Shown piece after piece: positions 12,001-34,229 of a DNA stretch of 50,048 nt. The stretch's first letter is position 1, and every line of letters begins with the position of its first letter. This DNA comes from Nostoc sp. FACHB-152 (lineage in GTDB: Bacteria > Cyanobacteriota > Cyanobacteriia > Cyanobacteriales > Nostocaceae): contig NZ_JACJRV010000051.1 in NCBI RefSeq assembly GCF_014697475.1, positions 1-50,048 on the forward strand, read 5' to 3'. Position numbers and translations under genes: made by a program. The notes under the pieces were generated by a model. That model searched no databases. It was not told the DNA's origin and saw nothing but the letters and a program-made list of their open reading frames with translations.

Positions 12001-12161
12001 TTGGGTGTAACGATAGAACTTTCAGAGCCTAGTGTATTATCAGGCGTAATCTGAGCTAGGGCGTAATCTGTCCAAAAAGCGATCGCTCCACTTATTGCTA
12101 AAAAGTTGAATATCCCTAATTTCCAGTCCCAAAGTTGCCAGTATTTATTTGTTCTGGACAT
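9030..12161 (-). CDS. two-partner-secretion FHA/hemagglutinin-type exoprotein (TpsA-like)
   Basis: The 1043-residue protein has an extended signal sequence (cleavage near residue 36, YALAQ). A TPS secretion domain follows, recognisable by NIFSRVTGGSPSNILGTLG and NLFMMNPNGIIFG. The rest is a long beta-helix rich in GNGGNI, GDAGNVNVN and GKGGNIDIN turns. Residues of about 370-760 form three tandem copies of a 130-residue unit plus partial flanks. The C-terminus has two cysteines and a VDTEIAQGC block usual for cyanobacterial members. Such proteins are exported through a TpsB/FhaC-type outer-membrane pore and act at the surface in adhesion or aggregation. No TpsB gene lies in the window. The start codon is preceded by GGGGGAAAA and by a perfect hairpin at 12177-12201. 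It leads a transcription unit with the CHAT-TPR gene. Confidence 0.9.
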   Translation of the reverse strand: MSRTNKYWQLWDWKLGIFNFLAISGAIAFWTDYALAQITPDNTLGSESSIVTPNVNINNTPSIVIDGGAQRGANLFHSFREFNIDEGRGAYFSNPDGINNIFSRVTGGSPSNILGTLGVLGNANLFMMNPNGIIFGLNASLDVGGSFVATTANALQFGNLGFFSATDKNIPSPLLTINPSALLFNQINQNAAIQNNSVAFAGQDPAGFYAFGLRVPDGKSLLLVGGDVSMDGGELSANGGRVELGGLAEPGTVALGVDGNDLSLIFPENVVRSEVSLTNQAGIYVEGAGGGNIAVNASNLEILGGSFLSGGIGVGLGTPETIGGDITLNATGSIKVVGTASSVSNLVRLNSQGNGGNITVDSGSLSLQNNSRLLSSTYGQGNAGNVTVRVRDAVDLESGDIFSTVEAGGVGKGGNIDINAATLSLKDIAQLQTLTRGASATQPGGRGDAGNVNVNVTGAIDIAGEKNGFVTGISSSVQTGTVGNGGNITINSGSFSLRDGAQLATLTSGQGNAGNVTVQARDAVSLADASILSTVEASGVGKGGNIYINAETLSLKDGAQLATITREAFAIQPAGQGDAGNVNVNVTGTIDIAGEKNGFVSAIVSFVSMGTQGNGGNITIDAASFSLRDRAQLSASTQGRGNAGNVTVRVLDAVSLVDASILSTVERGGIGKGGNIDINAATLSLTDSAQLQTLTRSASDTQPAGRGDAGNVNVNVTGAVDIAGEKNGFPSGIRSRVQTGTVGNGGNITINSDSFSLQDGAGLSAETFGQGNAGIIKVNAADFFTISGKASNFNSGLFVNSQSPTGTAGDIIVTSPRVTLDNSGRLDAESASGNGGNINLQTDLLLLRRGAQITTTAGTAQAGGNGGNINIDAPSGFIVAVPGENSDIIANAFTGIGGRVYINAFGIYGIQPRESLTNFSDITASSEFGTQGTVELNTPVLDPNSGLVNLPAVPVDTEIAQGCTAGSSIAKSEFNIVGRGGLPPNPGEALNTDAVQVDLVSLNPKVAVSSTPNSTVNAQDWIIDTNGKVTLIANVRPTAGCQN
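9889..11058. repeat. three 390-bp tandem repeats in the exoprotein gene
   Basis: The same landmark (GAGAAGGAA.CAGA-type stretch followed by a TAAT(A/G)TT.CC(A/C)CCATTACC block) recurs at 9889, 10279, 10669 and, more diverged, 11059. A second landmark (CCATTTTTCTCTCCAGCAAT) recurs at about 9979, 10369 and 10759. The spacing is 390 bases each time, that is 130 codons, so copy-number change would keep the reading frame. Confidence 0.85.
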
Positions 12162-19682: not shown

Positions 19683-20132
19683 ATGTCTAATATTCTTCGT
19701 GAAGAAATGCCAGTACTTTCACGCCATGAAGGTGATTGGATAGGAACATATACACTAGTAGATTTAGAAGGAAAAATTTTAGATAAACATGAATCTCATT
19801 TAAGCTGTCAGTTTCCAGATGATAGTCCTTATTCCTACTATCAAATCAATCGCTACAAATGGTCTGATGGTAAACAAGAAGAACATAAATTTCCTGGAAC
19901 GTACCGTGATAAAGCAATCTGGTTTGATACAGAACGCATCGAAGGCAAAGCTTGGGAAGTAGATAATTCTACTATTATTTTGAAATTTTCTTATAAAACA
20001 GTCCCAGGCGCATACTTATATGAAATGATTCAAATTAATCCAGATAATAACCATCGCGCCCGCACATGGCACTGGTTTAAAAATGATCAACTTTACCAAC
20101 GTACCTTGATTCAAGAAGAAAGGGTAAGATAG
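19683..20132 (+). CDS. DUF3598-like (lipocalin-type) protein
   Basis: The 149-residue protein starts with REEMPVLSRHEGDWIGTYTLVD and continues with alternating beta strands: LSCQFPDDSPYSYYQINRYKW, GTYRDKAIWFDTERIEGKAW, TIILKFSYKTVPGAYLYEMIQI and ARTWHWFKNDQLYQRTLIQEER. The HEGDW opening and strand order fit the DUF3598 family, which has a lipocalin-like barrel and is common in cyanobacteria and algae. A small-molecule binding role is plausible but not shown. AAAGGAG is placed 7 bases before the ATG. No signal peptide. It stands alone, followed by a 148-base repeat element. Confidence 0.7.
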   Translation: MSNILREEMPVLSRHEGDWIGTYTLVDLEGKILDKHESHLSCQFPDDSPYSYYQINRYKWSDGKQEEHKFPGTYRDKAIWFDTERIEGKAWEVDNSTIILKFSYKTVPGAYLYEMIQINPDNNHRARTWHWFKNDQLYQRTLIQEERVR

Positions 20133-20374: not shown

Positions 20375-21763
20375 ATGGCAAAGACTGACAAAATTAACTT
20401 TTCTACTCCTAGCGGTTTTCCTGAATTCCTGCCTAGTGAAAAACGCTTAGAATTATACTTACTAGATACCATCCGTAGAGTTTATGAAAGTTACGGATTT
20501 ACCCCTATAGAAACTCCCGCAGTTGAAAGATTAGAAGTATTACAAGCCAAAGGCAATCAAGGCGACAATATTATTTATGGTATCGACCCTATTCTACCAC
20601 CAAATCGCCAAGCAGAAAGAGATAAAGCAGGCGAAACAGGTTCAGAAGCACGCGCTTTAAAATTTGACCAAACAGTTCCTTTAGCCGCATATATTGCGCG
20701 CCACCTCAATGAATTAACCTTTCCCTTTGCCCGTTATCAAATGGATGTAGTATTTCGTGGAGAACGAGCAAAAGACGGTAGATTTCGTCAGTTTCGTCAA
20801 TGTGATATTGATGTAGTTGGAAGGCGTGAACTAAGCTTATTATATGATGCTCAAATGCCAGCAATTATCACCGAAATTTTTGAAGCAGTGAACATCGGTG
20901 ATTTTGTGATTCGCATCAATAACCGCAAAATTCTTACAGGATTATTTCAATCATTAGGGGTTGCAGAAACTCAAATCAAAACTTGTATTGTTATTATTGA
21001 TAACCTAGAAAAAATTGGTGAAACTAAAGTAAAACAAGAATTAGAAAAAGAAGGTATTTCAGCAGAACAAACTCAAAAAATTATTGATTTTATTAAAATA
21101 GATGGTGCTGTAGATGAGGTATTAGATAAACTCAAACACCTGTCACAAAATCTCCCAGATGCCGAGCAATTTAGTTTAGGTGTTAGCGAACTAGAAACAG
21201 TAATTACAGGTGTGCGTAATTTGGCTGTTCCTGAAAAGCGTTTTTGTATTGATTTGTCTATTGCCCGTGGTTTGAATTACTATACTGGCACAGTTTACGA
21301 AACAACTCTCATCGGCCATGAAGCTTTGGGTAGTATTTGTTCTGGTGGCAGATATGAAGAATTAGTTGGGATGTTTATCGGTGAGAAAATGCCAGGTGTG
21401 GGCATTTCTATCGGCTTAACTCGCTTAATTAGCAGATTACTCAAAGCAGGAATTTTAAATACTTTACCTGCAACACCAGCCCAGGTAGTAGTAGTAAATA
21501 TGCAAGAAGATTTAATGCCAACTTATTTAAAAGTTTCGCAACAGTTACGTCAAGCAGGCATTAATGTAGTAACGAATTTTGAGAAGAAGCAATTAGGTAA
21601 ACAATTCCAAGCAGCAGATAAACAGGGGATTAGATTTTGTGTAATTATTGGTGCTGATGAAGCAGCAGCCCAAAAATCATCGCTCAAAGATTTGCAAACA
21701 GGCGAACAAATAGAAATAGCATTAGCCGATTTGGCTGAAGAAGTAAAACGCAGGCTAATGTAA
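20375..21763 (+). CDS. hisS: histidine-tRNA ligase
   Basis: The 462-residue protein is a class II aminoacyl-tRNA synthetase of the HisS type. It attaches histidine to tRNA-His. Visible signatures are the opening SGFPEFLPSEKRL, motif 2 in YQMDVVFRGERAKDGRFRQF followed by QCDIDVVG, the histidine-binding block IARGLNYYTGTVYETTL, and motif 3 GVGISIGLTRLI. The C-terminal 90 residues are the anticodon-binding domain (AQVVVVNMQ...QLGKQFQAADKQGIRF). These active-site blocks are complete, so it is not just the related HisZ regulatory subunit. It is slightly longer than the E. coli enzyme. Confidence 0.93.
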   Translation: MAKTDKINFSTPSGFPEFLPSEKRLELYLLDTIRRVYESYGFTPIETPAVERLEVLQAKGNQGDNIIYGIDPILPPNRQAERDKAGETGSEARALKFDQTVPLAAYIARHLNELTFPFARYQMDVVFRGERAKDGRFRQFRQCDIDVVGRRELSLLYDAQMPAIITEIFEAVNIGDFVIRINNRKILTGLFQSLGVAETQIKTCIVIIDNLEKIGETKVKQELEKEGISAEQTQKIIDFIKIDGAVDEVLDKLKHLSQNLPDAEQFSLGVSELETVITGVRNLAVPEKRFCIDLSIARGLNYYTGTVYETTLIGHEALGSICSGGRYEELVGMFIGEKMPGVGISIGLTRLISRLLKAGILNTLPATPAQVVVVNMQEDLMPTYLKVSQQLRQAGINVVTNFEKKQLGKQFQAADKQGIRFCVIIGADEAAAQKSSLKDLQTGEQIEIALADLAEEVKRRLM

Positions 21764-21894: not shown

Positions 21895-24465
21895 ATGGAT
21901 AAAGAAATATTAAAAGAAGCTCTTCAAATTGACTATCGATTACGCTCTACCTTTTTCTATAGAAAGTTATATGAACTGGGTTTCAATAGCTTCTTGGCTG
22001 AAATAGATAAATTAATAGAACTGTCAGAAAACTTTAACTGGGAATCTAGACACAACTGGGGAATTTCTGAAACTGCTTGGAATATTTTGGAACAGAGCGG
22101 TATCCCTAAAATTTCTGTCTTTGCCCACCCTAGAGTACTTCAAGAACAGCCAAAACTTTCCGGCTACTATCGAAGTGTTGCAGTTCTTCCACAGAAAGCC
22201 GCTAAAAAATTAGCTTTTTCCAGCATTGATTCTATAGAAGAAGGAAAGGGAAAGTTATCTCAAGACAGAGCATTAATCCTCTGTCAACTTTATAATTCAC
22301 ATTCAAGCCTAATTATTGAAAGTACTAATGAGTATAGCCAAACTGATATGCAGGCATTAATGTATGCATCTGCTGGCGCACAAATTAATGGTGCTTGGTT
22401 AAACAAAATTGGAGAAGAAGCGGAATTATTAACAAGGCGAATTCTTATTCGTTCTCTCATTGAAGAAGAATATATTGTTGCTGCAATTCTAAAAGATGGT
22501 TCTTCAAGATTAGATGCGGAATATTTAGAAGATCTAGTTGATAAAGTAGATTTACTTTCTGGTGTGCGCCTAAAAAATCAAACTAGTATTCTTTTTTCTA
22601 GCGAACCGGACTTATCCTTATTAAATTCTGCTGGTGAAGCAGTAGCAGTTATTGAAGTAAAAGGTGGAAAAGATACAGCAGGGGCTTTAGAGAGATATGG
22701 TGCAGCCAAAAAGAGCTTTGAACAAGCTAAAAGAATTAACTCTAAAGTTGTTACAATACTTCTAGCTAGTTGTATAACTGATGAAGTTTATCGACGTTTG
22801 CAAAATGATGAAGCTGTTAATCATGTTTATAATTTAACGCAAGTTATTACTAGCGAAGACACTAGATATCGCTTTGCTTCTGATGTGCTTAGGTTTATAG
22901 ATATTCATATAGAAATTAATAATAATATTCAGAGCAGTAACTCTAGCAAGATTTCAAAAAAAAAAGTGAAACAACTAAATCTCCCAGTTGAGGTTTACAC
23001 AAAATCTAGCTCGAATTTGAAAATAATAAATTTTTCCAATGAACAAGTTTGTAATGAATCAGCTAGACTTGATTTAGAGAACCGATATGCTGAACTTCTG
23101 GAGGAAACTGAAGATTTTAATCGTAAGTTAGTAAGTTACCAGGGCAATAAAGGAGAAATTGCTCATGGTTGGATTCGATATAAAGAAGGATTTTCATTTA
23201 AACTAGTGGAAACTTTAATAAAAAAATTTGGAATTCAGCAGAGCGATACAATACTAGAACCTTTTTCTGGTTCTGGTACAACCTTACTTGTATGCAAAAC
23301 TTTAGGAATTAATGCCTTGGGTTTTGAAATTCTTCCTGTATGCCATTTAATGTGGGAAGCAAAATATTATCTTGATGAGTATAATATCGAGGAGTTAATG
23401 TATCTCTTCGAGCAACTGAAAGAAACTAAACCTGATAAAACAGAATTTACATTTCCTCATATATCTATCACTAAAGATGCGTTTTCTCAAGAAACAGAAA
23501 ATGACTTGATGTTCTTCTCAAATTGGATTAATACTCAACAAGTATCAAAAAAAGCAAAAGTTTTATATCAACTATTAATAACCAGTATTTTAGAAGAAGT
23601 TAGCTATACTAGGAAAGATGGTCAATATTTAAGATGGGATTATCGCTCTAATAAAGTTCAACAGAGAAATCAATTAAGAATTTCTCAAGGTAAAACATCT
23701 ATCAAACAATTTTATAAAGGAGCAATTACAACTGTTAAAGAAGCTTTATTACAGATATTCAAAACAGTACTATTGGATATAAAATCAATACGATATAGTT
23801 TACCAAGTGACAGTTTTCAGGATGTGATAAATGGTAGTGTTCTAGAAAACTTACCAAAGTATGAAAGTGAAAAATTCTCTGGTGTAATTACTTCACCACC
23901 CTATTGCAATAGATATGATTATACCAGAACTTATGCTTTGGAACTTGCTTATTTAGGCACAGATGAGTTGGAGATTCGTAAACTACGACAAAATCAGCTA
24001 TGCTGTACTGTTGAAAATCGATCTAAATTACATAAGCTCGAACAGATTTATAGAGATATAGGTCGAATTGATAACTTTAAAGCTATTTGCAAAGTTATTA
24101 CTGAAAATAGTGTTTTTCAAGAAATCAATTCTGCTTTGAAAATCAGACAGGAGCGTGGAGAAATTAATAACCCAGGCATACTATCTATGGTAGAAGGTTA
24201 TTTTTATGAATTAACCTTTCTATTTGCTGAGATATTTAGAACTTGTAAAAAAGGTGCTTACGTTGCCTTTGTTAATGACAATGTACGCTATGGTGGAGAA
24301 ATTATACCTGTTGATATGCTTTGTACAGAGATAGCAGAGACTATTGGCTTTGTCCCGGAAAAAATATATGTCTTGCCTCAACGTAAGGGTAATAGTAGTC
24401 AACAAATGGGGCGATTTGGAAAAGAATCACTGCGTAAAAGTATCACAGTTTGGAGAAAACCTTAG
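21895..24465 (+). CDS. fused restriction endonuclease-DNA methyltransferase
   Basis: The 856-residue protein joins two enzymes. The N-terminal half (about residues 1-340) contains a PD-(D/E)XK nuclease motif: Pro238-Asp239, then Glu254-Val-Lys256 (EVKGGKD). After a linker, the C-terminal half has DNA methyltransferase motif I, EPFSGSGTT at 455-463, and the catalytic motif IV TSPPY at 666-670, followed by CNRYDYTRTYALELA. TSPPY is typical of N4-cytosine methylases. About 200 residues between motifs I and IV may carry target recognition. Such single-chain proteins form self-contained restriction-modification systems that cut unmethylated DNA. No separate specificity gene is nearby. GAAGGA sits about 17 bases before the ATG. 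Recognition sequence unknown. Confidence 0.82.
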   Translation: MDKEILKEALQIDYRLRSTFFYRKLYELGFNSFLAEIDKLIELSENFNWESRHNWGISETAWNILEQSGIPKISVFAHPRVLQEQPKLSGYYRSVAVLPQKAAKKLAFSSIDSIEEGKGKLSQDRALILCQLYNSHSSLIIESTNEYSQTDMQALMYASAGAQINGAWLNKIGEEAELLTRRILIRSLIEEEYIVAAILKDGSSRLDAEYLEDLVDKVDLLSGVRLKNQTSILFSSEPDLSLLNSAGEAVAVIEVKGGKDTAGALERYGAAKKSFEQAKRINSKVVTILLASCITDEVYRRLQNDEAVNHVYNLTQVITSEDTRYRFASDVLRFIDIHIEINNNIQSSNSSKISKKKVKQLNLPVEVYTKSSSNLKIINFSNEQVCNESARLDLENRYAELLEETEDFNRKLVSYQGNKGEIAHGWIRYKEGFSFKLVETLIKKFGIQQSDTILEPFSGSGTTLLVCKTLGINALGFEILPVCHLMWEAKYYLDEYNIEELMYLFEQLKETKPDKTEFTFPHISITKDAFSQETENDLMFFSNWINTQQVSKKAKVLYQLLITSILEEVSYTRKDGQYLRWDYRSNKVQQRNQLRISQGKTSIKQFYKGAITTVKEALLQIFKTVLLDIKSIRYSLPSDSFQDVINGSVLENLPKYESEKFSGVITSPPYCNRYDYTRTYALELAYLGTDELEIRKLRQNQLCCTVENRSKLHKLEQIYRDIGRIDNFKAICKVITENSVFQEINSALKIRQERGEINNPGILSMVEGYFYELTFLFAEIFRTCKKGAYVAFVNDNVRYGGEIIPVDMLCTEIAETIGFVPEKIYVLPQRKGNSSQQMGRFGKESLRKSITVWRKP

Positions 24466-24578: not shown

Positions 24579-25373
24579 ATGTTTAGACCTAATAGACTGA
24601 AAAAAATGCTCCAAGCCGGTTTTCAACCAATCGGTTGCTGGATTTTTTTCTCAGATAGTGACTCAATAGAACTTCTTTCTATGTGTGGGTTCGATGCCTT
24701 TATTATCGACCACGAACATGGTGCTATGGAAATGGGCATCTTAGTAGAGCAACTCCGCGCCGCCCAAGCCACAGATGTTACCTGTATTTTGCGTGTGCCT
24801 TCGCACGATCCAGTCTATATTAAGCGAGCCTTAGACATGGGCGTGGAAGGTATACTCGTTCCGACGGTAGAATCAGCCGATGAAGCGCGAGCAATTGTCG
24901 CCGCAACCCGCTATCGACCTCATGGCGGACACCGAGGAGTTGGTTATCCTGAGAGCCGAGCCGCTAACTGGGGTTTAGCAGAGCTAGAGTATCCTGCTAA
25001 TTATCGGGAGAATCTACTTGTAGCCGTGATTGTTGAAACCCGTCGGGGTTTTGAGAATGTTAGGGAAATTGCCGCAGTTGACGGGATCGATATGGTAATT
25101 TTAGGAGCAGGCGATCTGATGGCAGACATTGCAGACGATTTTGCTGCACTGACTAAGTTAGGAACTTACAATAATTCAGAACTTGACCGATTGTTAGCGG
25201 AAGCCGAAGCAATAGTTCGCTCCACTCCTGATTGCTGGCTTGGAGGTGTTAGTCGTCATGTCGCAGGAGGTCGCGAACTGTTCGCTAAGGGCTATGATTT
25301 CGTACTACCTGCTGCTGATGGCTGGTTGCTGGCTGATGCGGCGCGTTCTGTGGTCACTGCCATGAGAGGTTAA
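24579..25373 (+). CDS. HpcH/HpaI-type aldolase
   Basis: The 264-residue protein has the HpaI/2-dehydro-3-deoxyglucarate aldolase pattern. The expected active-site residues are present: His47 (FIIDHEHG), Arg72 (ILRVPSHDP), Glu153 (VIVETRRGFEN) and Asp179 (LGAGDLMADI), with the GVEGILVPTV and RYRPHGGHRGVGY blocks. The family cleaves or forms carbon-carbon bonds in keto-acid substrates such as pyruvate adducts, with a divalent metal held by Glu and Asp. It opens the accessory cluster that runs to 33744 and is on the plus strand, convergent with the first hydrolase gene. Substrate unknown. The length is typical. Confidence 0.9.
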   Translation: MFRPNRLKKMLQAGFQPIGCWIFFSDSDSIELLSMCGFDAFIIDHEHGAMEMGILVEQLRAAQATDVTCILRVPSHDPVYIKRALDMGVEGILVPTVESADEARAIVAATRYRPHGGHRGVGYPESRAANWGLAELEYPANYRENLLVAVIVETRRGFENVREIAAVDGIDMVILGAGDLMADIADDFAALTKLGTYNNSELDRLLAEAEAIVRSTPDCWLGGVSRHVAGGRELFAKGYDFVLPAADGWLLADAARSVVTAMRG

Positions 25374-25415
25374 AAAAGTATACAGTAACCTTGGAAAATT
25401 AGCGGCTGAACTATT

Positions 25416-26231
25416 CTAATTGTGCAAAAACTGAATTACTACCTCTGCTACTTTTTCAGGTATTTGATTCATCATGCAAATTGTTCCTTCGGGAAATTCA
25501 GCTACTTTGCCATGCGGAATTGCTTGAGAAAGAAAATAGCGATCGCCAGCTTTTGCTAAACTCAATCTTTCAAATTCTTTGACATCATCCATTCCCCAAA
25601 TAATTAGAGTTGGACACTTGATAGAGCGAAATCTTTCGGGTGCATCTAGACAGTAATTACCTACAGCCCAAACTGCATACAAAGGATGACCAAAACATTT
25701 TAAATCGTCTAAAACCCAACGGTGATTTAACTCAGCAGAACCTACATATCGAGAACGGGCTAACCATCTTTGCATGAGGTGAGAGCCATCTTCTTTGATT
25801 TTAAAACCTTCCTCAAACATTCTGAATAACTGTGCTTGCCCACCTTCACCAAAACCAGCTACATTTCCTAAAATCAGTTTATCAATGCGATCGCCATATG
25901 CTGCTGTGACTTCTCCAGCTACAAAAGCACCTGTATGGTTGCCCATAATGCTAGTTTTTTCTATACCTAATTCATCTAAAAGTGCGATCGCTGTTTTTGC
26001 GTAGTCGGCGATTGTATACATTCTGGGTGGTTTATCCGAATCACCAAACCCCATTAAATCCATTGCTATAACTTGTCTATGTTCAGCAAGGATAGGCATG
26101 AGTTCGCGGTATTCATCACTACTGCGGGGGTTCATGTGCAGTAAAAGCAGAGGTTCACCCTCTCCACCGATGCGGTAAAGAATTTGACCATCTTCTGTGT
26201 CTAGAAAAGCTCGTTTAATTTTTTGTGTCAT
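25416..26231 (-). CDS. alpha/beta-hydrolase-fold protein with atypical active site (copy A)
   Basis: The 271-residue protein has an alpha/beta hydrolase fold: PLLLLHMNPRSSDEY (oxyanion region) and DLMGFGDSDKP, then the nucleophile-elbow position GNHTGAF at 97-103. The usual Gly-x-Ser-x-Gly is Gly-Asn-His99-Thr-Gly here, so the catalytic Ser is replaced by His. The C-terminal position where the base His is usually found reads GTICMMNQIPEKV, without His. RutD-type proteins also lack the Ser, so such members may act by another mechanism or be non-catalytic. A paralog (27321-28139) is two genes away. The BKACE gene lies just upstream in the same direction. Confidence 0.85.
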   Translation of the reverse strand: MTQKIKRAFLDTEDGQILYRIGGEGEPLLLLHMNPRSSDEYRELMPILAEHRQVIAMDLMGFGDSDKPPRMYTIADYAKTAIALLDELGIEKTSIMGNHTGAFVAGEVTAAYGDRIDKLILGNVAGFGEGGQAQLFRMFEEGFKIKEDGSHLMQRWLARSRYVGSAELNHRWVLDDLKCFGHPLYAVWAVGNYCLDAPERFRSIKCPTLIIWGMDDVKEFERLSLAKAGDRYFLSQAIPHGKVAEFPEGTICMMNQIPEKVAEVVIQFLHN

Positions 26232-26265
26232 ATTTTTGGGCGATCGCAGTTACATAGTCCTTTAA

Positions 26266-26280
26266 GTGGGCATTGCCCAC
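26266..26280. repeat. 15-base palindrome between hydrolase A and BKACE genes
   Basis: GTGGGCA-T-TGCCCAC, a perfect 7-bp inverted repeat in the 59-base gap. Inverted repeats like this recur in Nostocales DNA. A regulatory or mRNA-processing role is possible. Confidence 0.45.
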
Positions 26281-26290
26281 ACTAAATTAT

Positions 26291-27214
26291 TTATGAGTTG
26301 GCAGTTGCATAATCTTCCTTTCGGGAAGTTCTCGGCGACATCTTCAAAATCTCGCGCGCCTGTGCTGGCGTTGCAACTTCCCGACCGACAGTGTGTGCCA
26401 TCTTTGCAACCATCTCAACCAACTCGCCATTATGCGGCTTGCCAAAGCGAGTGTAAGCATAATCTCCCAATCCAATGCCGACGTGTCCACCCAGAGTGAT
26501 TGCCCAGGCTGCCACTTTCATCACATCACCGTTCCAGCAAAGAGCCAACCACTGATTTCCCGCAGGGACTTCTGCCACAAACGCTTGCAAACCATGTATA
26601 GTCGCCGCAGCACCAGATGGCATGACTTCTCCGGTAAAGACAAACTCCCAAAGCGTTTCCTGTGGCAGAAGTCCCATTTCTTGGAAGCAACGCGCTGTTC
26701 GCATTTGTCCTACGTCCCAACAGACTGAACTAACGTAAACATTGTGTTTCTTAAAGACTTCCAGCACTGCTCTGAGGTTCTCACGAGTATTAACGTACAC
26801 TTGATTGTAAGTAGTAAACTGTTTTGCCTGGGGATTCCAGAAGTCCACGTTGAGCGATCCGAAATCTACTGGAGCCATATCAACCCGCAGCACAGGATCG
26901 TCATTTACTGCCAAGATGTGCCGGACGCGATCCTCCACCCGATTCTGTGTAATGTAACCCAGCGTCGGATGGATTAGTAAATCTGTCTGTGCGCGAATTC
27001 CCTCTATCACTTCAAGATAAAGTTCAACATCGTTGCGCGGTTTCCCACTCTCTGGGTCTCGCCCGTGCCAATGGAATATCGAAGCCCCTGCTTCCCAAGC
27101 ACGAACTGCTTCTTGGATAATCTCTTTTGGAGAGTAGGGTACATTAGGATTTGCCGTGCGATCAGCTATTTCGTTACAACGACACTCAATAATTAAGGGT
27201 AATTGCTCGTTCAT
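26291..27214 (-). CDS. BKACE-family (DUF849) protein with altered active site
   Basis: The 307-residue protein is a TIM-barrel member of the beta-keto acid cleavage enzyme family. These enzymes condense a beta-keto acid with acetyl-CoA to give acetoacetate and a CoA ester. The zinc-binding His48 and His50 lie in GASIFHWHGRDP. The usual Arg-x-Gly-x-Glu-Asp block reads GGHVGIGLGDY, so the expected Arg (Gly246) and the third zinc ligand Glu (Gly250) are missing, with Asp251 kept. The start was set at 27214 because AGGAGG lies 6 bases upstream; a longer in-frame start at 27292 would add an unlikely basic extension. It lies between two hydrolase genes on the same strand. Confidence 0.85.
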   Translation of the reverse strand: MNEQLPLIIECRCNEIADRTANPNVPYSPKEIIQEAVRAWEAGASIFHWHGRDPESGKPRNDVELYLEVIEGIRAQTDLLIHPTLGYITQNRVEDRVRHILAVNDDPVLRVDMAPVDFGSLNVDFWNPQAKQFTTYNQVYVNTRENLRAVLEVFKKHNVYVSSVCWDVGQMRTARCFQEMGLLPQETLWEFVFTGEVMPSGAAATIHGLQAFVAEVPAGNQWLALCWNGDVMKVAAWAITLGGHVGIGLGDYAYTRFGKPHNGELVEMVAKMAHTVGREVATPAQAREILKMSPRTSRKEDYATANS

Positions 27215-27320
27215 TGTCTTCCTCCTAAATAGGTTGGCAAATTTATTGACTAAGCAGTGATATTTTTTCTTCTCTGCTTTCCCTCTATACAAAAATTCCT
27301 AATTAATTATGTACAAGCAC

Positions 27321-28139
27321 TTACTGCTTGTCTAAAAAATCAACTACTACTTTTAATACTTCTTCTGGCATTTGATTAACCATCCACATGGTTCCACTTT
27401 CTAGTTCAACGCTTTGACCATGAGGAATAATTTCCTGGAGCCAAGATTGATTCTCAGGTTTTGCTAAACCAACTTTTTCTAACGGTTCTAATGCTTTTTC
27501 TCCTAACAAAACTAAAGTTGGACATTTAATCAAACGAAATCTTTCTTTAGCTGCAAGACAATAGTTTGCTACTGCCAAACCTGGATATATAGGAGAGCCA
27601 AAGCACTTCAAATCATCTAAAACACAACGGTGATTTAACTCCCCATTACCTATGTAATTGACGCGAGCCAACCATTGTGCCATCAAATGAGAGCCATCTT
27701 CTTTAACTTGATACCCTTGTGAATATCTCTTGTGAATTTTGTCTTGTTCTTCTGTGTCAAATCCAAAGACATTACAGAGGATGAGTTTGTCAACTCGTTC
27801 TGGATAAGCTGCTGCAAATTCTCCGGCGATATAACCCCCAGTAAGACTACCGAAAATGCTAGTCTTTTTTATGCCTAATTCATCCAAAAGCGCGATCGCA
27901 TTTTTGGCATAGTCTGCAACTGAATAAACTCTAGGAGGCTTGTCAGAATCACCTAAACCCATTAAATCCATTGCAATTACTAATTTCTTCTCTGCCAACA
28001 TCGGCATCAATTCTTTAAATTCATCACTACTGCGGGGAGTCATGTGCAGTAAAAGTATAGGTTCACCTTCTCCACCGATACGGTAAAGGATTTGTCCATC
28101 TTCTGTATCGAAAAATGCTCTTTTGATCCGGTGACTCAT
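27321..28139 (-). CDS. alpha/beta-hydrolase-fold protein with atypical active site (copy B)
   Basis: The 272-residue protein is closely related to the product of 25416-26231: the opening RIKRAFFDTEDGQILYRIGG, PILLLHMTPRSSDEF, DLMGLGDSDKP and the ending QMPEEVLKVVVDFL correspond along the length. The nucleophile-elbow position reads GSLTGGY, with Leu99 where Ser should be, and the C-terminal His is absent (GTMWMVNQMPE). Neither copy can use the standard Ser-His-Asp mechanism. The two copies probably arose by duplication with the BKACE gene retained between them. Their products could form heterodimers or bind the same ligand. The divergent plus-strand methyltransferase lies 237 bases away. Confidence 0.85.
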   Translation of the reverse strand: MSHRIKRAFFDTEDGQILYRIGGEGEPILLLHMTPRSSDEFKELMPMLAEKKLVIAMDLMGLGDSDKPPRVYSVADYAKNAIALLDELGIKKTSIFGSLTGGYIAGEFAAAYPERVDKLILCNVFGFDTEEQDKIHKRYSQGYQVKEDGSHLMAQWLARVNYIGNGELNHRCVLDDLKCFGSPIYPGLAVANYCLAAKERFRLIKCPTLVLLGEKALEPLEKVGLAKPENQSWLQEIIPHGQSVELESGTMWMVNQMPEEVLKVVVDFLDKQ

Positions 28140-28376
28140 TTTTTTATACTCCTTATCTTACTGGACTTATATAGCAAGCCTAAATGAAATATAAACACAC
28201 CTATTGCCTCTTGCCTGCCCCCACGAGTAATTTGTAAATCAAATAGAATTGCTATATTCAGATTTGATATACAGAATCACAATTGTCAATTTCATGTATG
28301 CTACCAAAAATAGGAAACGCGGGTTTCTACTATTTACTTCAAAAAGCAGCATGACGCTTATGAGTGGGGTAAAAAA

Positions 28377-29117
28377 ATGACATACTATAACTCCATAGCC
28401 CAGCAGTATAAAAAATCCAAACAGTTGTCGTTTCGTCTGCATATTGAGGCATATACATACTTTCATCTGCTTGGTAATCTGGTCGGAAAATCAATTCTCG
28501 ATTTGGCTTGTGGAGAAGGATTTTACACCAGACTATTCAAACTTCAAGGTGCAGCACAGGTTGTTGGTGTCGAAATCTCAGAAAAAATGATTGAACTGGC
28601 AAAGCAAGAAGAAACTAGACAATCCCAAGACATTGAATATATTCTTTGTGATGTATTTGAACTTGGTAAAATTGGCAGTTTTGATTTGGTGGTGGCTTCC
28701 TATCTACTTAATTACGCCCAAACCAAAGAACAACTACTGAAAATGTGTCAGAACATATTTGTCAATTTAAAACCGGGCGGTCGTTTCGTTACCATCAATA
28801 ATAATGAATCCCAATCTCCTTCGTCTTATCTCGCTACTGAAAAGTATGGATTTATTAAAAGCATAGATTCACCATTAATCGAAGGCACACCTATAAAATA
28901 CACATTTACAATCTCTGCAAGTGACAATAAATTCAGCTTCTATAACTATTACCTCAGCCGAGCTACTTATGAGTGGGCATTTCGGAGTGTTGGTTTCCAA
29001 GAGATTCGCTGGCAAAAACCAGTAGTCTCGCCGCAAGGAATCGCAGAATTTGGTCAAGAGTTTTGGCAGGATTTTCTTAACTGTGTGCCTATAGTTGGGA
29101 TTGAGTGTATTAAATAA
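28377..29117 (+). CDS. class I SAM-dependent methyltransferase
   Basis: The 246-residue protein has a Rossmann-type methyltransferase fold: motif I SILDLACGEGFYTRLF, motif II VVGVEISEKMIELA, motif III region DIEYILCDVFELG and the acidic block FDLVVASYLLNYA. The opening YYNSIAQQYKKSKQ and FRLHIEAYTY resemble proteins annotated as toxoflavin synthase-like N-methyltransferases, but a substrate cannot be assigned. The gene starts within the accessory cluster and is divergent from hydrolase B. The upstream 237 bases have no recognisable regulator site. Confidence 0.82.
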   Translation: MTYYNSIAQQYKKSKQLSFRLHIEAYTYFHLLGNLVGKSILDLACGEGFYTRLFKLQGAAQVVGVEISEKMIELAKQEETRQSQDIEYILCDVFELGKIGSFDLVVASYLLNYAQTKEQLLKMCQNIFVNLKPGGRFVTINNNESQSPSSYLATEKYGFIKSIDSPLIEGTPIKYTFTISASDNKFSFYNYYLSRATYEWAFRSVGFQEIRWQKPVVSPQGIAEFGQEFWQDFLNCVPIVGIECIK

Positions 29118-29211
29118 GTGTTTATCATGAATTATTGCGATCGCTCGCAGTTTATGTGCTTATTTAAAATTTTAGAAGTGTCGAAGGGGCGATCGCTCCC
29201 ATCAAATTACT

Positions 29212-30693
29212 CTAAAATCTTTTAATATAACGCCCAGTTGGTGAACCTAAAATCTGTCCGTTATTATAAATAAGACTTCCACGCAAAAACGTACTCTTCA
29301 CTCTTCCAGTTAACTCCATCCCTTCAAAAGGTGTATAACCTTGTTGTGACTCTGACTCAGCCGCACGCACCACAAAGCTTTCATTCGGGTCTACCAACAC
29401 CAAGTCTGCATCATAACCAACAGCAATATCCCCTTTTTCTAACAACCCAAAACGCCGCGATGGGTTCCAAGAAAGCAACTTAGCCATATGGTTATAAGAC
29501 ATTCCCCGCTTGCTACCTTCACTCAATACACCCGAAAGTAAATATTCTGTACCACCAAAACCAGACTTGGCTAACCAAATATTATTTGGGTCTTTCGCAC
29601 TTCTTTTTTGTTCAGCAGAACAGCAAGCATGGTCACTCACTATCCAATCTACTTGATTATTTAGTACCGCTTGCCATAAATATTCCACATCAGCGCGGGG
29701 ACGAATAGGCGGGTTAACTTTTGCCCAAGTACCATTAGGGGTATCAACATCTAATAGTAAATGTCCCACAGTAATTTCTCGCCGAAAATTGATGTGAGGA
29801 AAAGCAGTTTGCATTGTCAAAGCTGCTTCCATTGCTTTGCGCGAACTCAAATGTAACAAATTGATATTTGCACAGTTAGTTTCATGTGCTAAATAAGAAG
29901 CAATACAAATGGCTAAACCTTCCGAATGTGGTGGACGCGCTGCACTGTAAGCGTGCAGTCCACTCAAGCTAGAATCGTTTTCTACTATTTTTGTATAAGC
30001 GTTGAGAATTTCTGCAATTTCACAATGCAAACTCAAACTAATAGTATCTCGCGCAGATGGATGTTCTGCCATCAAGCGAGTGATACCGCGCATGATAAAT
30101 TCAAAATGGGAGAAGTCGTAGCGTTCTTCTTTATTGATCATCAAAAACAAATTTTGGTGGTCTGAGAGACCATGCAACCCATAGCCACCATAAAACATAA
30201 AAATTTTAAATGAAGATACACCATGTTCTTCAAATAATAGAGGTATTTCATCGATATGTTGACTAGCTATAGGTGCAACGTGATAGCTGTAATCAACAAA
30301 AAAATTACCTGCGGATAATGCCAGTACCTCTGGAAAGAAATCCCGGTAAGAACCGCCTTTATTTAGATAATATTGTCCGGTACGAATGTAATTGAGACTT
30401 GTGGTTACTCCCCCCATTGCGGCGGCTTTACTTTCCGTCACTGCATCATGATCGAGGGGTTGATATATGCCAATGTGCATATGAGCATCCACAACCCCAG
30501 GAAAACCCAGCAAGTTTTTAGCATCGAATACTTCTAAGGCTTGGTTTGCGCTAATATTAGGAGCAATTTCAGCAAATTTTCCATCCTTAATGCCTAAATC
30601 AAGTAGTTCAACAGCATCATTATGAGGACGAACAGCGCGCACATTTTTGATAATTTTATCTAATACAGGAGGTTCAGACACAGTAGACCTCAC
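29212..30693 (-). CDS. hydantoinase/dihydropyrimidinase-like amidohydrolase
   Basis: The 493-residue protein belongs to the cyclic amidohydrolase family (hydantoinase, dihydropyrimidinase, dihydroorotase). The expected metal and catalytic residues are in place: His71-x-His73 (VVDAHMHIG), Lys163 (SSFKIFMFYGG, the carbamylated Lys), His223 (SLHCEIAE), His281 (NLLHLSSRK) and Asp354 (IVSDHACCS). The C-terminus ends GRYIKRF. It is predicted to open a cyclic amide, ureide or imide ring, with a binuclear metal centre. In this cluster it is one of only two enzymes with a complete standard active site. It is divergent from the hydroxylase-like gene. Confidence 0.88.
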   Translation of the reverse strand: MRSTVSEPPVLDKIIKNVRAVRPHNDAVELLDLGIKDGKFAEIAPNISANQALEVFDAKNLLGFPGVVDAHMHIGIYQPLDHDAVTESKAAAMGGVTTSLNYIRTGQYYLNKGGSYRDFFPEVLALSAGNFFVDYSYHVAPIASQHIDEIPLLFEEHGVSSFKIFMFYGGYGLHGLSDHQNLFLMINKEERYDFSHFEFIMRGITRLMAEHPSARDTISLSLHCEIAEILNAYTKIVENDSSLSGLHAYSAARPPHSEGLAICIASYLAHETNCANINLLHLSSRKAMEAALTMQTAFPHINFRREITVGHLLLDVDTPNGTWAKVNPPIRPRADVEYLWQAVLNNQVDWIVSDHACCSAEQKRSAKDPNNIWLAKSGFGGTEYLLSGVLSEGSKRGMSYNHMAKLLSWNPSRRFGLLEKGDIAVGYDADLVLVDPNESFVVRAAESESQQGYTPFEGMELTGRVKSTFLRGSLIYNNGQILGSPTGRYIKRF

Positions 30694-30817
30694 ACTAAAA
30701 TGAGTACAGAAGCTTAAGTTCTGGTGTAATCCGGAATTTCAACATAGTACCGGAACCCAAGCTAAAACCCATTATTATGTAACAGTTTTTTATTCAATCA
30801 TCTTTAGGATAAAAACA
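30694..30817. promoter_or_regulatory. divergent promoter region with imperfect inverted repeat
   Basis: Between the amidohydrolase and hydroxylase-like genes lies an imperfect inverted repeat: AGCTTAAGTTC (30712-30722) against GAACCCAAGCT (about 30754-30764), enclosing a pair of CCGGAA/CCGGAACC motifs. This might be an operator for a regulator controlling both divergent genes. No regulator gene is present in the cluster. Confidence 0.4.
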
Positions 30818-31612
30818 ATGGAAACTTTTAATGAGTATCATCTCAACCCAGAACAATTTACTTTTCTCAACAGTCTGCAAGATAACTGGCAAGTAATTAG
30901 AGATGAGTTTACTACCTTTATTCAGCAGGCATCGAATGAAGAGATAAAATTTGCTTACGATGTTTTAGGGCCTAAGAGTAAAACGATTCAAACCAAAGGC
31001 AATTCAAAATATAGTGCTTTTGGCATTTTATTCCAAGGTTTATTTATTGAAGAATATATTCAAACACATCAAATACAATATCCTGATCATGAAACAAATG
31101 AGGCATCAGAAAAAGCACTTATCTTACGAAAAAAATACTTTTCTAATCTGGCTAATGCCATAGAGAAAGTGAACTTTCACGATGATAATATCCTGAGAAA
31201 CGTTTACTTTGGTACATTTCATCCAGGCTTAGATATCAAGCTGCACGTCAACGATAATCCTCACATGAATCGAGGCTATTTAGGTTTGATTGTGCCAGAG
31301 GGTGATGTAGCTATGAAAATCTGCCATGACAAGCTTTATTGGCACGAAGGAAAATTCTTGATTTTAGATCATAGCTATCCCCACTGCCCACATAATTACA
31401 CCAATTACGATCGCACTGTTTTAGTTGTAGACTTTTTCAAACCAGATAAACCTAGAGAAGAAGTAATTCAATTTGAAAAAGAGCAAGTTAAGCAGCGTAT
31501 GCAAGATAATCCTTACAGCTTAGGTGTGTTTGGTAAGAGTGATAAAGCTAAAGAAGAGGATTTTATCAAGTATGGTTTAGCCCATCAATTAGAGTGGGAT
31601 AAATCTTTATAA
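30818..31612 (+). CDS. Asp/Asn beta-hydroxylase-like protein with altered iron site
   Basis: The 264-residue protein shows the C-terminal half of the aspartyl/asparaginyl beta-hydroxylase family: RGYLGLIVPEGDVAM, then WHEGKFLILDHSYPH, and the terminal RTVLVVDFFKPD. The family uses iron, oxygen and 2-oxoglutarate. In the standard pattern the first iron ligand is His in RxHLGL; here the position reads RGYLGL (Tyr154). The second iron His is present (His189), and the Arg that binds 2-oxoglutarate matches Arg199. So the iron site may be lost or altered. Residues 1-125 are a helical region I do not recognise. It is divergent from the amidohydrolase gene. Confidence 0.8.
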   Translation: METFNEYHLNPEQFTFLNSLQDNWQVIRDEFTTFIQQASNEEIKFAYDVLGPKSKTIQTKGNSKYSAFGILFQGLFIEEYIQTHQIQYPDHETNEASEKALILRKKYFSNLANAIEKVNFHDDNILRNVYFGTFHPGLDIKLHVNDNPHMNRGYLGLIVPEGDVAMKICHDKLYWHEGKFLILDHSYPHCPHNYTNYDRTVLVVDFFKPDKPREEVIQFEKEQVKQRMQDNPYSLGVFGKSDKAKEEDFIKYGLAHQLEWDKSL

Positions 31613-31667
31613 GTTTTATCTTCACCCTTTCTAAATAAAATAGTTGAGTGTAAAAAAGTTGCCAAAT

Positions 31668-32120
31668 TTAGCTGTCAATAATTGCTGTACACTTAATTTC
31701 AATAATTAAACCAGGGGTAGATAGTCCTACTACACCAAAACCTGTCCAAGTAGGAAAGTTGTTAATAAAATAGTGGTCTTTAACTTGCATAAATAGCGGT
31801 AAAAAAGGAATTACATATGGTGATTTTGCAGAATCTTGTGCTTCTGTTTGAAGTTCACCTAGTCCTGGCCCAGCTACATGATATGTAATCATCTCGACTA
31901 CATTATCAAATGTAGCTCCTCCTGCTTCTAGTACCTTTTTAACATTCTCAAAAGCTTGAACAAACTGAGCTTCTACCCCTGGAACAACTTGTAAATTTTC
32001 ATCTCTGCCTACTTGTCCTGAAATATATAAGGTATTTCCAACTTTAATTCCTGGACAATAATGAAACTTTTCAAATAAAACTTCCATCCCTTTGGGAATA
32101 ATGACTTGGCGAGAGGGCAT
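31668..32120 (-). CDS. RidA-family protein lacking the catalytic Arg
   Basis: The 150-residue protein matches the RidA (YjgF/UK114) fold: KVGNTLYISGQVG, QFVQAFENVKKVLEAGG and NNFPTWTGFGVVGL near the C-terminus. RidA proteins hydrolyse reactive enamine/imine intermediates, using an Arg in the P-x-R-x segment. Here that position is Trp125 (FPTWTG), so imine deaminase activity is doubtful. Many RidA subfamilies lack the Arg and have unknown roles. The start is set at 32120 because TAGGAG (32126-32131) is just upstream; a longer in-frame start (32153) would add 11 residues. It lies 73 bases after the SDR gene on the same strand, so the two are probably co-transcribed. Confidence 0.85.
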   Translation of the reverse strand: MPSRQVIIPKGMEVLFEKFHYCPGIKVGNTLYISGQVGRDENLQVVPGVEAQFVQAFENVKKVLEAGGATFDNVVEMITYHVAGPGLGELQTEAQDSAKSPYVIPFLPLFMQVKDHYFINNFPTWTGFGVVGLSTPGLIIEIKCTAIIDS

Positions 32121-32193
32121 AATGTATCTCCTAAATGGGAAATAAATACTCAATAAAATAAGCTGGTATGAGTTATGCTCAATAATTAAGCGT

Positions 32194-33030
32194 TTAAGCT
32201 AGGTGAAAGCCACCATCCACAGGCAAAGCTACTCCAGTAATAAATGCAGCTTGAGGAGAGCATAAAAAAGCTACTACTCCACCTATTTCTTCGGGAGAAG
32301 CCCAACGTTTCATCGGTACATTTTCAATCTTCTGTTTCATAGCTTCACTATCTATTCCACCACTATTTGCAGTGGCAAACTGCCAAGCTTCGGTCTTAAC
32401 ATAACCGGGAATAACGACATTTACTGTAATTCTTCGTGGCCCAAGAGTTTTGGCATAGTATCTGGCTAAAAATTCCACAACTGCTTTAGCTTGACCTGGC
32501 ATAACATAGCTCAATTTTGGAGTTTGATTACTATTACACCCAGGTGCAGATATTGCTACTATATAGCCGTTTCCATCTTCCATGTAATTAATAGCTTTTT
32601 CTACACATCTAATAAAGCATTTAGGATAGACACTCTGATAGTAATCGTACTTTTCAAAATTATTCCATTTACCAGTTCCTAATAATTGAGTGTGATCATT
32701 AGCTGCTGAAGTAGCTTGACTAGATTCATCTGATGTTGTCAGTCCAACATATAATCCAGCATTATGAATAAATGCTGTTAGTTTACCTTGAAAATTATCC
32801 TCAACAGATTTAAATATTTTTTCAATAGTCGATTCTTCTGCTACATCCCCTTTAACCAGGCAAACTTTTTTTCCATAGGTTGATTCTAATTTAGTCTTAG
32901 CAATCGATGCAGCCTCTTCATTGGAATTAAACCCAAGTATCAGGTCATATCCATTTTGAGCTAACTGCTGTGATATTCCCCAACCAATACCACGAGTACC
33001 ACCTGTAACTATTGCTAGCTTTGATATCAT
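32194..33030 (-). CDS. SDR family oxidoreductase with Y-x6-K active site
   Basis: The 278-residue protein is a short-chain dehydrogenase/reductase. The NAD(P)-binding motif VTGGTRGIGWG (residues 8-18) and NAG (90-92) are classical. The catalytic region has Ser161 (AISAPG), Tyr175 and Lys182 in SYVMPGQAK, which gives Tyr-x6-Lys rather than Tyr-x3-Lys. That arrangement is known in enoyl-ACP reductases such as FabI and FabL. The end has PGYVKTEAW, then ITGVALPVDGGFHLA. The combination of a classical cofactor motif with Y-x6-K is most like FabL, so reduction of a C=C bond is one possibility. Co-transcription with RidA is likely. Confidence 0.87.
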   Translation of the reverse strand: MISKLAIVTGGTRGIGWGISQQLAQNGYDLILGFNSNEEAASIAKTKLESTYGKKVCLVKGDVAEESTIEKIFKSVEDNFQGKLTAFIHNAGLYVGLTTSDESSQATSAANDHTQLLGTGKWNNFEKYDYYQSVYPKCFIRCVEKAINYMEDGNGYIVAISAPGCNSNQTPKLSYVMPGQAKAVVEFLARYYAKTLGPRRITVNVVIPGYVKTEAWQFATANSGGIDSEAMKQKIENVPMKRWASPEEIGGVVAFLCSPQAAFITGVALPVDGGFHLA

Positions 33031-33345
33031 TTTTGCCCACTAAATAGTAAGTTGAATTAATAACAAACAGAAACTAAAAAAACTAGCAGTTGATTCTGGT
33101 ATAATCAACTATCAAGTTATTAATTAACCATTAAGTAATCTTCAGTCAATTAAAGAGCAATGAAGGCAAAAGCATATAGTAAGTTTATAGCAAAACAACT
33201 CACTAAGGACAAGTATAAGCACGTTTAAACTTGGTTTCTAATTTCTGTATCTGAAAGTATTAATTTTTAACATAATATTGACTTAATTTCTTTTAGATCT
33301 AACAAAATATAAACTCAGTAATTTAATTTATTACAGTTAAAAATA
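33031..33345. other. intergenic region, divergent promoters
   Basis: The 315 bases separate the SDR (minus) and NTF2-like (plus) genes. AT-rich, with no repeat, tRNA or ORF that I can support. It must hold the promoters for both. Confidence 0.4.
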
Positions 33346-33744
33346 ATGACACAGAAATCAGAAAATACATTAAAAGTTGCTCACCAAGCATTTGAGCATT
33401 TTACACATGGTCTAGCAACTGGAGAATGGCAAGCATTCCTTGATATGCTTACAGATGATTTTACCTTTTGGTTTCCAATGGGTAAATTTCACGGTTTAAA
33501 TGAGGGTAAAGAACGGGCTAAAGAATTTTTTCAATATGTTTCTGAAGCTTTCAGTCCGGGAATTACGCTAACTTCCCTCGACCGTGTTACTAGTAATGAA
33601 ACAACTGTTGTTTTTGAATTTCGGGATGAAGGATTGTTATTTGGACAGCCTTATAAAAATCGTGTAGCGGTTTCTTTTGATGTGCGCGGCGATAAAATTT
33701 GTAGCTATCGGGAATATTTTGGTAGCGATAGTAAATCCTACTGA
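33346..33744 (+). CDS. NTF2/SnoaL-like protein
   Basis: The 132-residue protein has the cone-shaped NTF2-like fold pattern: a helical start (VAHQAFEHFTHGLATGEWQ), then FLDMLTDDFTFWFPMGKFHG, and beta strands VVFEFRDEGLLFGQPYKNRVAVSF and KICSYREYFGSDS. This fold occurs in ketosteroid isomerases, polyketide cyclases and dehydratases, and also as small-molecule binders. A specific activity cannot be assigned. It is the last gene of the accessory cluster and the only one downstream of the SDR on the plus strand. Confidence 0.8.
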   Translation: MTQKSENTLKVAHQAFEHFTHGLATGEWQAFLDMLTDDFTFWFPMGKFHGLNEGKERAKEFFQYVSEAFSPGITLTSLDRVTSNETTVVFEFRDEGLLFGQPYKNRVAVSFDVRGDKICSYREYFGSDSKSY

Positions 33745-33776: not shown

Positions 33777-34229
33777 TTAATTAAGTTCTTTTAATTCTTT
33801 ACACTTAACCTCTGCGGCTTGATAGGCTGCTAAATACTCCTTACCACCTAACATTACATCACCATAATATTCATAAGGTGCTGTTCCATAAATTGGTAGG
33901 GGATCATCTTCGGGATAATCTTCTTTTGATTCTTCGATAATAGCTTTTAGTTTTTTGACACTCAAGCTTTGTGCGGGAAAATACCACAGTTCTTGGGAAT
34001 TTTTTTGTAATTGTGGAAAGTTGGGATCAACAATTGAATCGCCTATCTCAATCCAACTGTGTTCTACAGGTCGATAGGGCTTACCTGCAAAAACTAAAAA
34101 TCCCTGAATATAGATTGCTCCCTCTGTTGCTAATGCTGCTTTGTAGGCATTGTCAAAAGGTTTATTTGCTTTACTTTTAATTTTTTTAGCAATCTCAAGT
34201 GAAAGCTTTTCATCTAATGCTTTGTTCAT
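33777..34229 (-). CDS. conserved hypothetical protein
   Basis: The 150-residue protein has no signal peptide and no transmembrane helix. A charged, lysine-rich N-terminal 25 residues is followed by AIYIQGFLVFAGKPYRPVEHSWIEIGDSIVDPNF, a segment resembling His-containing strands of the transglutaminase or papain-like fold, though the full triad cannot be shown. The tail has EDYPEDDPLPIYG and a helical end. It overlaps no neighbour and is followed by convergent DNA. I do not recognise the family. Confidence 0.6.
   Translation of the reverse strand: MNKALDEKLSLEIAKKIKSKANKPFDNAYKAALATEGAIYIQGFLVFAGKPYRPVEHSWIEIGDSIVDPNFPQLQKNSQELWYFPAQSLSVKKLKAIIEESKEDYPEDDPLPIYGTAPYEYYGDVMLGGKEYLAAYQAAEVKCKELKELN

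Follow-up and report, generated by a model that had tools for sequence, protein, structure and literature searches.

Positions 24579 to 33744 of contig NZ_JACJRV010000051.1 of Nostoc sp. FACHB-152 (50,048 nucleotides, one entire contig in a draft genome of 8.6 Mb, hereafter the window) hold ten open reading frames (ORFs) on mixed strands. These genes probably make up much of one copy of a modular metabolic pathway that is as yet uncharacterised and has so far been encountered in cyanobacteria only, as judged from a scan for close relatives with two peptide patterns and from a class-wide genome sample. The most constant part of the gene set consists of an amidohydrolase and an AspH-type oxygenase (hereafter the hydroxylase), usually encoded by divergent neighbouring genes, with which a nitrilase-like protein is co-inherited. 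Around this core a changing set of genes is found. It comprises DUF3598 and SnoaL proteins, reductases (two MDR types or an SDR with a Tyr-x6-Lys motif), two alpha/beta hydrolases (A and B), BKACE and Rid proteins, cupins and an aldolase; a methyltransferase, a sulfotransferase, and a Rieske oxygenase or FAD-binding oxidase occur in one or a few loci.

Co-inheritance of the core genes

The distribution of the core genes was determined in a sample of 388 genomes of the class, the present genome included (hydroxylase E <=1e-60, amidohydrolase E <=1e-150, nitrilase-like protein E <=1e-100). The amidohydrolase and the hydroxylase match the identical 27 genomes and are adjacent in all of them, at a distance of 48-936 bp (median 127), 26 times in divergent orientation and once in tandem. 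The pair-bearing genomes span six families, and the distribution is patchy at least within the family to which the window belongs. The nitrilase-like gene is likewise present in 27 of the 388 genomes, 26 of them in common with the pair; it is missing from G299, and the pair is missing from G269. In 11 of the 26 genomes, the present one included, the nitrilase-like gene lies more than 15 kb from the pair or is unlinked (eight times on a different contig, and at a distance on the same long contig in G016, G487 and G275). Co-occurrence of the core genes also in genomes with an unlinked nitrilase-like gene suggests one pathway, and not merely a shared address. Hydrolases of type A/B were found in 15 genomes, 13 of which carry the pair and 14 the pair or the nitrilase-like gene; the remaining one, G477, carries neither.

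The surroundings of the pair were fetched from 20 of the 27 genomes, and 14 of these stretches are without a hydrolase A/B match. Overlapping cluster neighbours are present in 12 of the 14. In seven, nitrilase-like, ALDH (aldehyde dehydrogenase), DUF3598, cupin and MDR genes lie beside the pair, in six of the seven together with a SnoaL gene. Another stretch has the nitrilase-like, ALDH and DUF3598 genes, three have cupin and SnoaL genes (two of them with an MDR gene) and one has MDR and BKACE genes. A DUF3598 gene is thereby found near the pair in 8 of the 14 stretches.

Gene content and recurrence of the cluster

The genes in the window are listed below, with folds assigned by a Pfam scan. 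An earlier note on this DNA, made from the letters alone, had described the last ten of them; their positions, folds and mixed strands agree with the ORF list and the Pfam matches.

19683..20132, plus strand: small DUF3598_N protein (Pfam 33.9 bits), upstream of hisS and beyond the range of the earlier note; a recurrent cluster member
24579..25373, plus strand: HpcH/HpaI-type class II aldolase (Pfam 108.5 bits)
25416..26231, minus strand: alpha/beta hydrolase A, with His99 at the nucleophile elbow and the triad His lost
26291..27217, minus strand: BKACE-fold protein from the subfamily to which cis-epoxysuccinate hydrolase belongs (best solved structure 5zmu); the ATG start at 27217 agrees with the homologues
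27321..28139, minus strand: alpha/beta hydrolase B, with Leu at the nucleophile position
28377..29117, plus strand: class I S-adenosylmethionine methyltransferase (Pfam)
29212..30693, minus strand: allantoinase/hydantoinase-like amidohydrolase, core gene 1, with all metal ligands present
30818..31612, plus strand: AspH-type Fe(II)/2-oxoglutarate oxygenase, core gene 2, with H143, H189 and Arg199 intact
31668..32120, minus strand: Rid protein with Trp for Arg, a YjgH-like Rid4/Rid7 signature (ATG start at 32120)
32194..33030, minus strand: SDR with Tyr-x6-Lys (FabL and adh_short_C2 matches)
33346..33744, plus strand: small SnoaL/NTF2-like protein (Pfam SnoaL_2, 48 bits), recurrent

BKACE orthologues were found in 13 of 150 relatives, the present genome included, and about 20 kb was fetched around each of the other 12. 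These 12 relatives share overlapping sets of cluster genes. Genes that do not figure in the range of the earlier note recur among them, namely those for a CN-hydrolase (the nitrilase-like protein), an ALDH, DUF3598, two reductases of the MDR type and an ABM protein. Both core genes are present in four of the 12, one of them in four and neither in the other four.

A scan of named genomes with two peptide patterns derived from hydrolases A and B, which retrieves close relatives only, yielded 78 loci, all cyanobacterial by record title. The following numbers of loci are lower bounds, as many stretches stop at contig ends: hydrolase A-type 67, DUF3598 46, amidohydrolase 39, MDR type 1 38, hydrolase B-type 33, hydroxylase 31, SnoaL 31, ALDH 27, Rid 22, nitrilase-like 21, MDR type 2 16, BKACE 10, ABM 7, SDR 7, aldolase 5 and methyltransferase 0. 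Another single-linkage family, present in 37 of the 78 loci, includes DUF4437 cupins (three members were scanned); for the sulfotransferase, Rieske, FAD-binding and MFS proteins, the identification comes from the scan of a single example each. For neither MDR type was a close orthologue found in the present genome (best matches at 36% and 38% identity), nor was there a DUF4437 match.

The gene-neighbourhood comparison that the earlier note had proposed thus shows the set to recur in overlapping form, with the hydrolase substitutions described below fixed in the relatives. The exact set of ten genes does not hold as a unit: no other examined locus has all ten. The methyltransferase in particular has no match (at least 38% identity) in the 78 loci or in 20 further loci, and is a singleton among 13 loci. 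An obligate, always adjacent pair of amidohydrolase and hydroxylase was also considered and dropped, since of the 41 loci (out of 78) with at least one of these genes, 29 have both and 12 have one only within the stretch; contig ends may explain some of the latter.

Active sites of the core enzymes

The earlier note had read a Tyr in place of the first iron-binding His of the hydroxylase. This reading goes back to a misalignment. Residues 129-211 align to residues 665-747 of full-length human AspH (758-residue chain 9fvu) with equal lengths, and the printed alignments to chains 5apa and 9fvx are ungapped over this stretch. The paired residues (hydroxylase=AspH) are G132=S668, H143=H679, Y154=H690, H185=D721, H189=H725 and R199=R735. 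According to PMC13168262, H679 and H725 of AspH bind the metal, S668, H690 and R735 contact 2-oxoglutarate, and the single-His variants H679A and H725A retain some activity. The Tyr therefore pairs with a 2-oxoglutarate contact. H143, H189, R199, Y154 and H185 occur without exception in the 121 aligned sequences (the best 120 of 372 matches and the window's own), and loss of the iron site was consequently rejected. The hydroxylase thus has the two iron His and the 2-oxoglutarate Arg that are also found in the AspH/Asp_Arg_Hydrox family (OlsC, LpxO), and its iron site is intact and its 2-oxoglutarate pocket modified. It differs from AspH in the Tyr for H690, Gly for S668 and His for D721, the two being about 19% identical where the folds match, and it scores far under the curated cut-offs for OlsC and LpxO. 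The AlphaFold2 (AF2) model is of moderate quality (pLDDT 67.4) and was used for the fold only; a fold search with it ranks AspH first.

The metal ligands of the amidohydrolase (HxH, Lys, His, His and Asp, which we take to be the metal-ligand motif of cyclic amidohydrolases) are kept in 44 of 44 rows, in line with the earlier note, which had described the signature residues of this protein and of the aldolase as complete. The aldolase retains all motifs checked in the window; its DHEHG motif is found in 6 of 8 rows, besides one gap and one DHEHI. The amidohydrolase has the general ligands of the cyclic amidohydrolases and the fold that it shares with allantoinase and D-hydantoinase. It differs from these enzymes in having an oxygenase partner and in scoring below every curated cut-off among 25 listed families out of 58, including those of AllB (236.6 against 357.85) and D-hydantoinase. 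A cyclic amide or ureide is a possible substrate.

The nitrilase-like gene lies outside the window. In this genome it is found on another contig (C55), beside the ALDH gene. Compared with a canonical paralogue encoded elsewhere in this genome and with yeast YLR351C (1f89), the Glu of the Glu-Lys-Cys triad is kept, the Cys is replaced by Ser and the Lys by Arg. Both replacements are present in 34 of 34 orthologues, with which this genome's copy agrees. Since the catalytic Cys and Lys are missing, the protein would not be expected to hydrolyse carbamoyl groups in the usual way. The ALDH retains its Cys and Glu motifs in 41 of 41 sequences, and 4h7n is a close relative of solved structure (811 bits). 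Near the two genes on contig C55, ORFs resembling an FAD monooxygenase and an NmrA-like protein were noticed by eye (L140:5146-6330 and 6368-7279).

These properties bear on the possibility that the genes serve to break down a cyclic ureide or a pyrimidine-like compound as a source of nitrogen, with ring opening, carbamoyl removal by a nitrilase-family enzyme and an ALDH finishing the carbon skeleton. The amidohydrolase, with its complete metal ligands, is nearest to allantoinase and hydantoinase, and the nitrilase-like gene is co-inherited with it and adjoins the ALDH gene in this genome. Reductive pyrimidine breakdown combines a dihydropyrimidinase with a ureidopropionase of the nitrilase family, a pairing of folds that is also present in the gene set described here; the nitrilase-like protein, however, lacks the Cys and Lys in all orthologues, and the sulfotransferase, Rieske and methyltransferase neighbours are ill-suited to such a route. 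Pyrimidine breakdown of the RutD/RutC type, to which the earlier note had drawn attention, likewise involves folds that are also encoded in the window, RutD being an alpha/beta hydrolase and RutC a Rid protein. The window proteins, however, remain far below the cut-offs for RutD (36.9 and 35.7 bits against 238.5) and RutC (30 against 169.1), the amidohydrolase is below that for AllB, and they lack the nucleophile and the Rid Arg. Membership of a Rut or other pyrimidine pathway was rejected on these cut-offs and residues, the candidate ureidopropionase being without its catalytic Cys and Lys. We therefore regard catabolism as rather unlikely, and a ureide route as weakly supported.

Alpha/beta hydrolases without a nucleophile

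Hydrolases A and B both have the Abhydrolase fold (Pfam 60.9 and 56.5 bits, cut-off 25.8), and the AF2 model of hydrolase A matches this fold in a structure search. The GxSxG motif is replaced by GNHTG in hydrolase A and by GSLTG in hydrolase B. The His and Leu that the earlier note had seen at the nucleophile position are borne out by the motif alignment and, for hydrolase A, by the model (pLDDT 92.6), in which His99 is located between strand 93-98 and helix 100-111 and thus in the nucleophile elbow. Among 247 aligned A/B rows the position is occupied by His in 142, Leu in 92, Val in 8, Ile in 3 and Thr in 1, with one gap, and Ser was found in none of the 246 aligned sequences. The position taken as the triad His holds Thr in 215, Asn in 21 and Ser in 7 rows (243 of the 247). 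Neither a Ser, Cys or Asp nucleophile nor the triad His of the family is thus present. This tally includes the window's own proteins and counts five contigs twice (L015/L027, L016/L030, L017/L029, L018/L028 and L022/L033); the hydrolase homologues surveyed are the best 120 of 2743 matches, so that relatives with canonical residues may exist lower down.

A tree was made of 226 of the 247 rows, after identical, short and gapped rows had been dropped. It places 88 of the 90 proteins with Leu, Val or Ile in one clade (support 0.999), and two parsimony changes account for the entire tree. Judging from this tree, the substitutions are old and have been held.

The genes of the window are also under purifying selection, as the earlier note had proposed to check: Nei-Gojobori ratios of non-synonymous to synonymous change (dN/dS), each against 3-6 orthologues, range from 0.037 to 0.198. 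One SnoaL comparison was saturated, the methyltransferase and the SDR were left out for want of orthologues, and the nitrilase-like gene was not included. These ratios largely refute the idea that the proteins are pseudoenzymes decaying after a loss of function. Nucleophiles have indeed been lost in three proteins, and the BKACE gene is truncated or interrupted in three relatives, yet the same replacement residues extend over whole clades, and we consider decay scarcely credible. The BKACE gene concerned is partial or contains a stop in G042, G046 and G069 (loci L026, L025 and L023), which keep other genes of the set.

It is also conceivable that the hydrolase folds without nucleophile serve as receptors or carriers of small molecules, in a binding or signalling system, for the product of the intact enzymes. 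Many other residues are conserved in both clades despite the loss of nucleophile and triad His, and the small folds DUF3598, SnoaL and Rid are frequent in the cluster. The set contains many intact enzymes, however, and the scanned cluster genes include no recognised regulator or output domain, which makes such a system improbable. A more specific form of the pathway reading would be that two superfamilies, the alpha/beta hydrolases and the nitrilases, lost their nucleophile and became fixed in a new role as non-hydrolytic catalysts, with His at the elbow in one hydrolase clade and Leu in the other, that act on an intermediate made by the oxygenase and the amidohydrolase. We put this forward tentatively, as a possibility that is more likely wrong than right.

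Other enzymes of the cluster

The earlier note had described most of the enzymes as altered in their active sites. This is overstated: the two hydrolases have truly changed, the hydroxylase had been misaligned, and the Rid, BKACE and SDR proteins are normal for their subfamilies. Judged from the alignments, the two alpha/beta hydrolases are the only unexplained catalytic losses within the window.

The Trp in place of the RidA Arg was correctly observed. It is present in 28 of 29 rows, with one gap, so that Arg105 of RidA is absent, and it is also found at this position in E. coli YjgH (1pf5). PMC4433059 gives this replacement as the signature of Rid4 and Rid7, with which the window protein agrees at the Rid4/Rid7 level; the site is thus a known signature and not an altered one.

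Similarly, the Gly residues reported for the usual Arg and Glu of the BKACE protein are correct, and are subfamily signatures shared with cis-epoxysuccinate hydrolase. The protein belongs to the BKACE family (Pfam 248.2, cut-off 24.8) and remains below the cut-off of the curated KCE family (162.9 against 382). Among solved structures its best relative is 5zmu (227 bits), a cis-epoxysuccinate hydrolase that shares its GLGD stretch. In 121 aligned sequences (homologues being the best 120 of 213), some of them non-cyanobacterial, the usual Glu position is Gly in all, and the usual Arg position is Gly in 67, Ala in 33, Ser in 18, and Cys, Gln and Arg in one each; non-cyanobacterial names appear near 57-58% identity. 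With residue numbers transferred by an inferred 20-residue chain offset, the equivalents of R11, H47, H49, R51 and D251 of the D(-)-tartrate forming cis-epoxysuccinate hydrolase are kept in the window protein, and that of D115 is Asp in 74 and Glu in 41 of the 121 sequences. E190 is given as catalytic in PMC6429283. At this position the window protein has Val, and the alignment has Val in 92, Phe in 17, Ile in 5 and other residues in 7 sequences, with Glu in none; a Glu is found two residues earlier in 111 of the 121. Of the equivalents of the catalytic D115, E190 and R11 the window protein thus keeps the Asp and the Arg.

The Tyr-x6-Lys motif of the SDR had also been noted correctly. We take it to be the motif of enoyl-reductase-type SDRs, for which it is ordinary, in line with the FabL and adh_short_C2 matches. 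It is shared by eight related SDRs (42-44% identity) from other loci. Its FabL score of 139.1 bits stays below the cut-off of 328, and the protein was not assigned to FabL itself.

The proposed pathway

The earlier note had suspected a coordinated pathway rather than a set of unrelated losses. This suspicion is supported by the recurrence of the set, the fixed substitutions, the low dN/dS values and the co-occurrence of core genes even where they are unlinked. As its role we favour the making of a small specialised metabolite over catabolism, given that the variable genes are of tailoring type (sulfotransferase, Rieske, FAD-binding, cupin and MFS proteins) and that the nitrilase triad cannot be used. 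The chemistry that we propose is read from the fold names. The oxygenase would hydroxylate a carbon beside an amide nitrogen or carbonyl, and the amidohydrolase would open or close a cyclic amide of the same intermediate. An aldehyde released en route may be oxidised by the ALDH, and a double bond may be removed by the reductase, MDR or SDR, that fills this slot. Hydrolases A and B, having lost nucleophile and triad His, could perform non-hydrolytic acid-base chemistry (as lyase, isomerase or cyclase) or bind an intermediate, and the variable genes would tailor lineage-specific end products.

Several observations weigh against a biosynthetic pathway of this kind. No polyketide synthase, non-ribosomal peptide synthetase or terpene synthase was found among the cluster genes scanned, which do not include every neighbour, and an MFS transporter was identified in one locus (L057), besides a similar ORF seen by eye in L072. 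The composition is highly variable, as illustrated by the few loci with an aldolase or a BKACE gene. The pair is not always adjacent: apart from the 12 of 41 loci with a single gene, four loci have gaps of 1.9-3.9 kb. In two of the 14 stretches without hydrolases A/B (L118 and L122) the pair stands without any other cluster gene in 19 kb. Finally, G477, G269 and G299 break the co-occurrence of hydrolases A/B, pair and nitrilase-like gene, for which the hypergeometric values are extreme but ignore shared ancestry.

No description of the cluster was found in literature searches of open-licence PMC text. The parts are known folds; their conserved combination and the clades without nucleophile appear to be undescribed within the literature searched. 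If the proposed reading is right, it provides a defined gene set in named cyanobacterial strains for a pathway not found described, and three protein clades with a replaced catalytic nucleophile.

Genomic surroundings

The cluster is flanked by the following genes.

20375-21763: hisS, upstream of the cluster
21895-24465, plus strand: XcyI-type restriction endonuclease and DNA methylase fusion in a single 856-aa gene, between hisS and the cluster (Pfam RE_XcyI 60.9 bits, N6_N4_Mtase 42.3; PADLOC MTase_II)
33777-34229, minus strand: 150-aa protein without Pfam match, flanking the SnoaL gene

In two relatives different genes fill the interval between hisS and the aldolase (L015:12542-13867 and L018:12463-14898), one with weak AriA/OLD-like ATPase matches and the other without a PADLOC match. 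On account of these other genes the hisS side of the cluster looks like an insertion hotspot. The entire cluster might accordingly be a collection of unrelated genes, without common function, gathered beside hisS. The gene lies within the same 20-kb stretch in 10 of the 12 fetched relatives and is single in the 99 of 150 relatives that match at threshold, and the restriction-methylase fusion and other unrelated genes lie between it and the cluster. Against this, G032 and G044 carry the gene set away from hisS, and the three core genes are found together in the same genomes even where they are not linked, so that we hold such an origin to be very improbable. The possibility that hisS represents a second histidyl-tRNA synthetase acting as a self-resistance gene was rejected, given the one match per genome in the 99 relatives.

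In L015, L017, L019 and L020 the synonymous divergence (dS) from the window is 0.30-0.54 for the aldolase, hydrolase A and hydrolase B, as far as these were measured, compared with 0.57-0.89 for hisS; the amidohydrolase is also below hisS, at 0.33-0.69. The lower dS of the cluster genes hints at horizontal exchange.

The family of the 150-aa protein is present in 22 of the 78 related loci and may be an extra member of the set or a mere flanking gene. Elsewhere in the window, a CHAT-TPR protein (6420-9014, minus strand) adjoins a large protein that carries a TPS secretion domain (9030-12161, minus strand).

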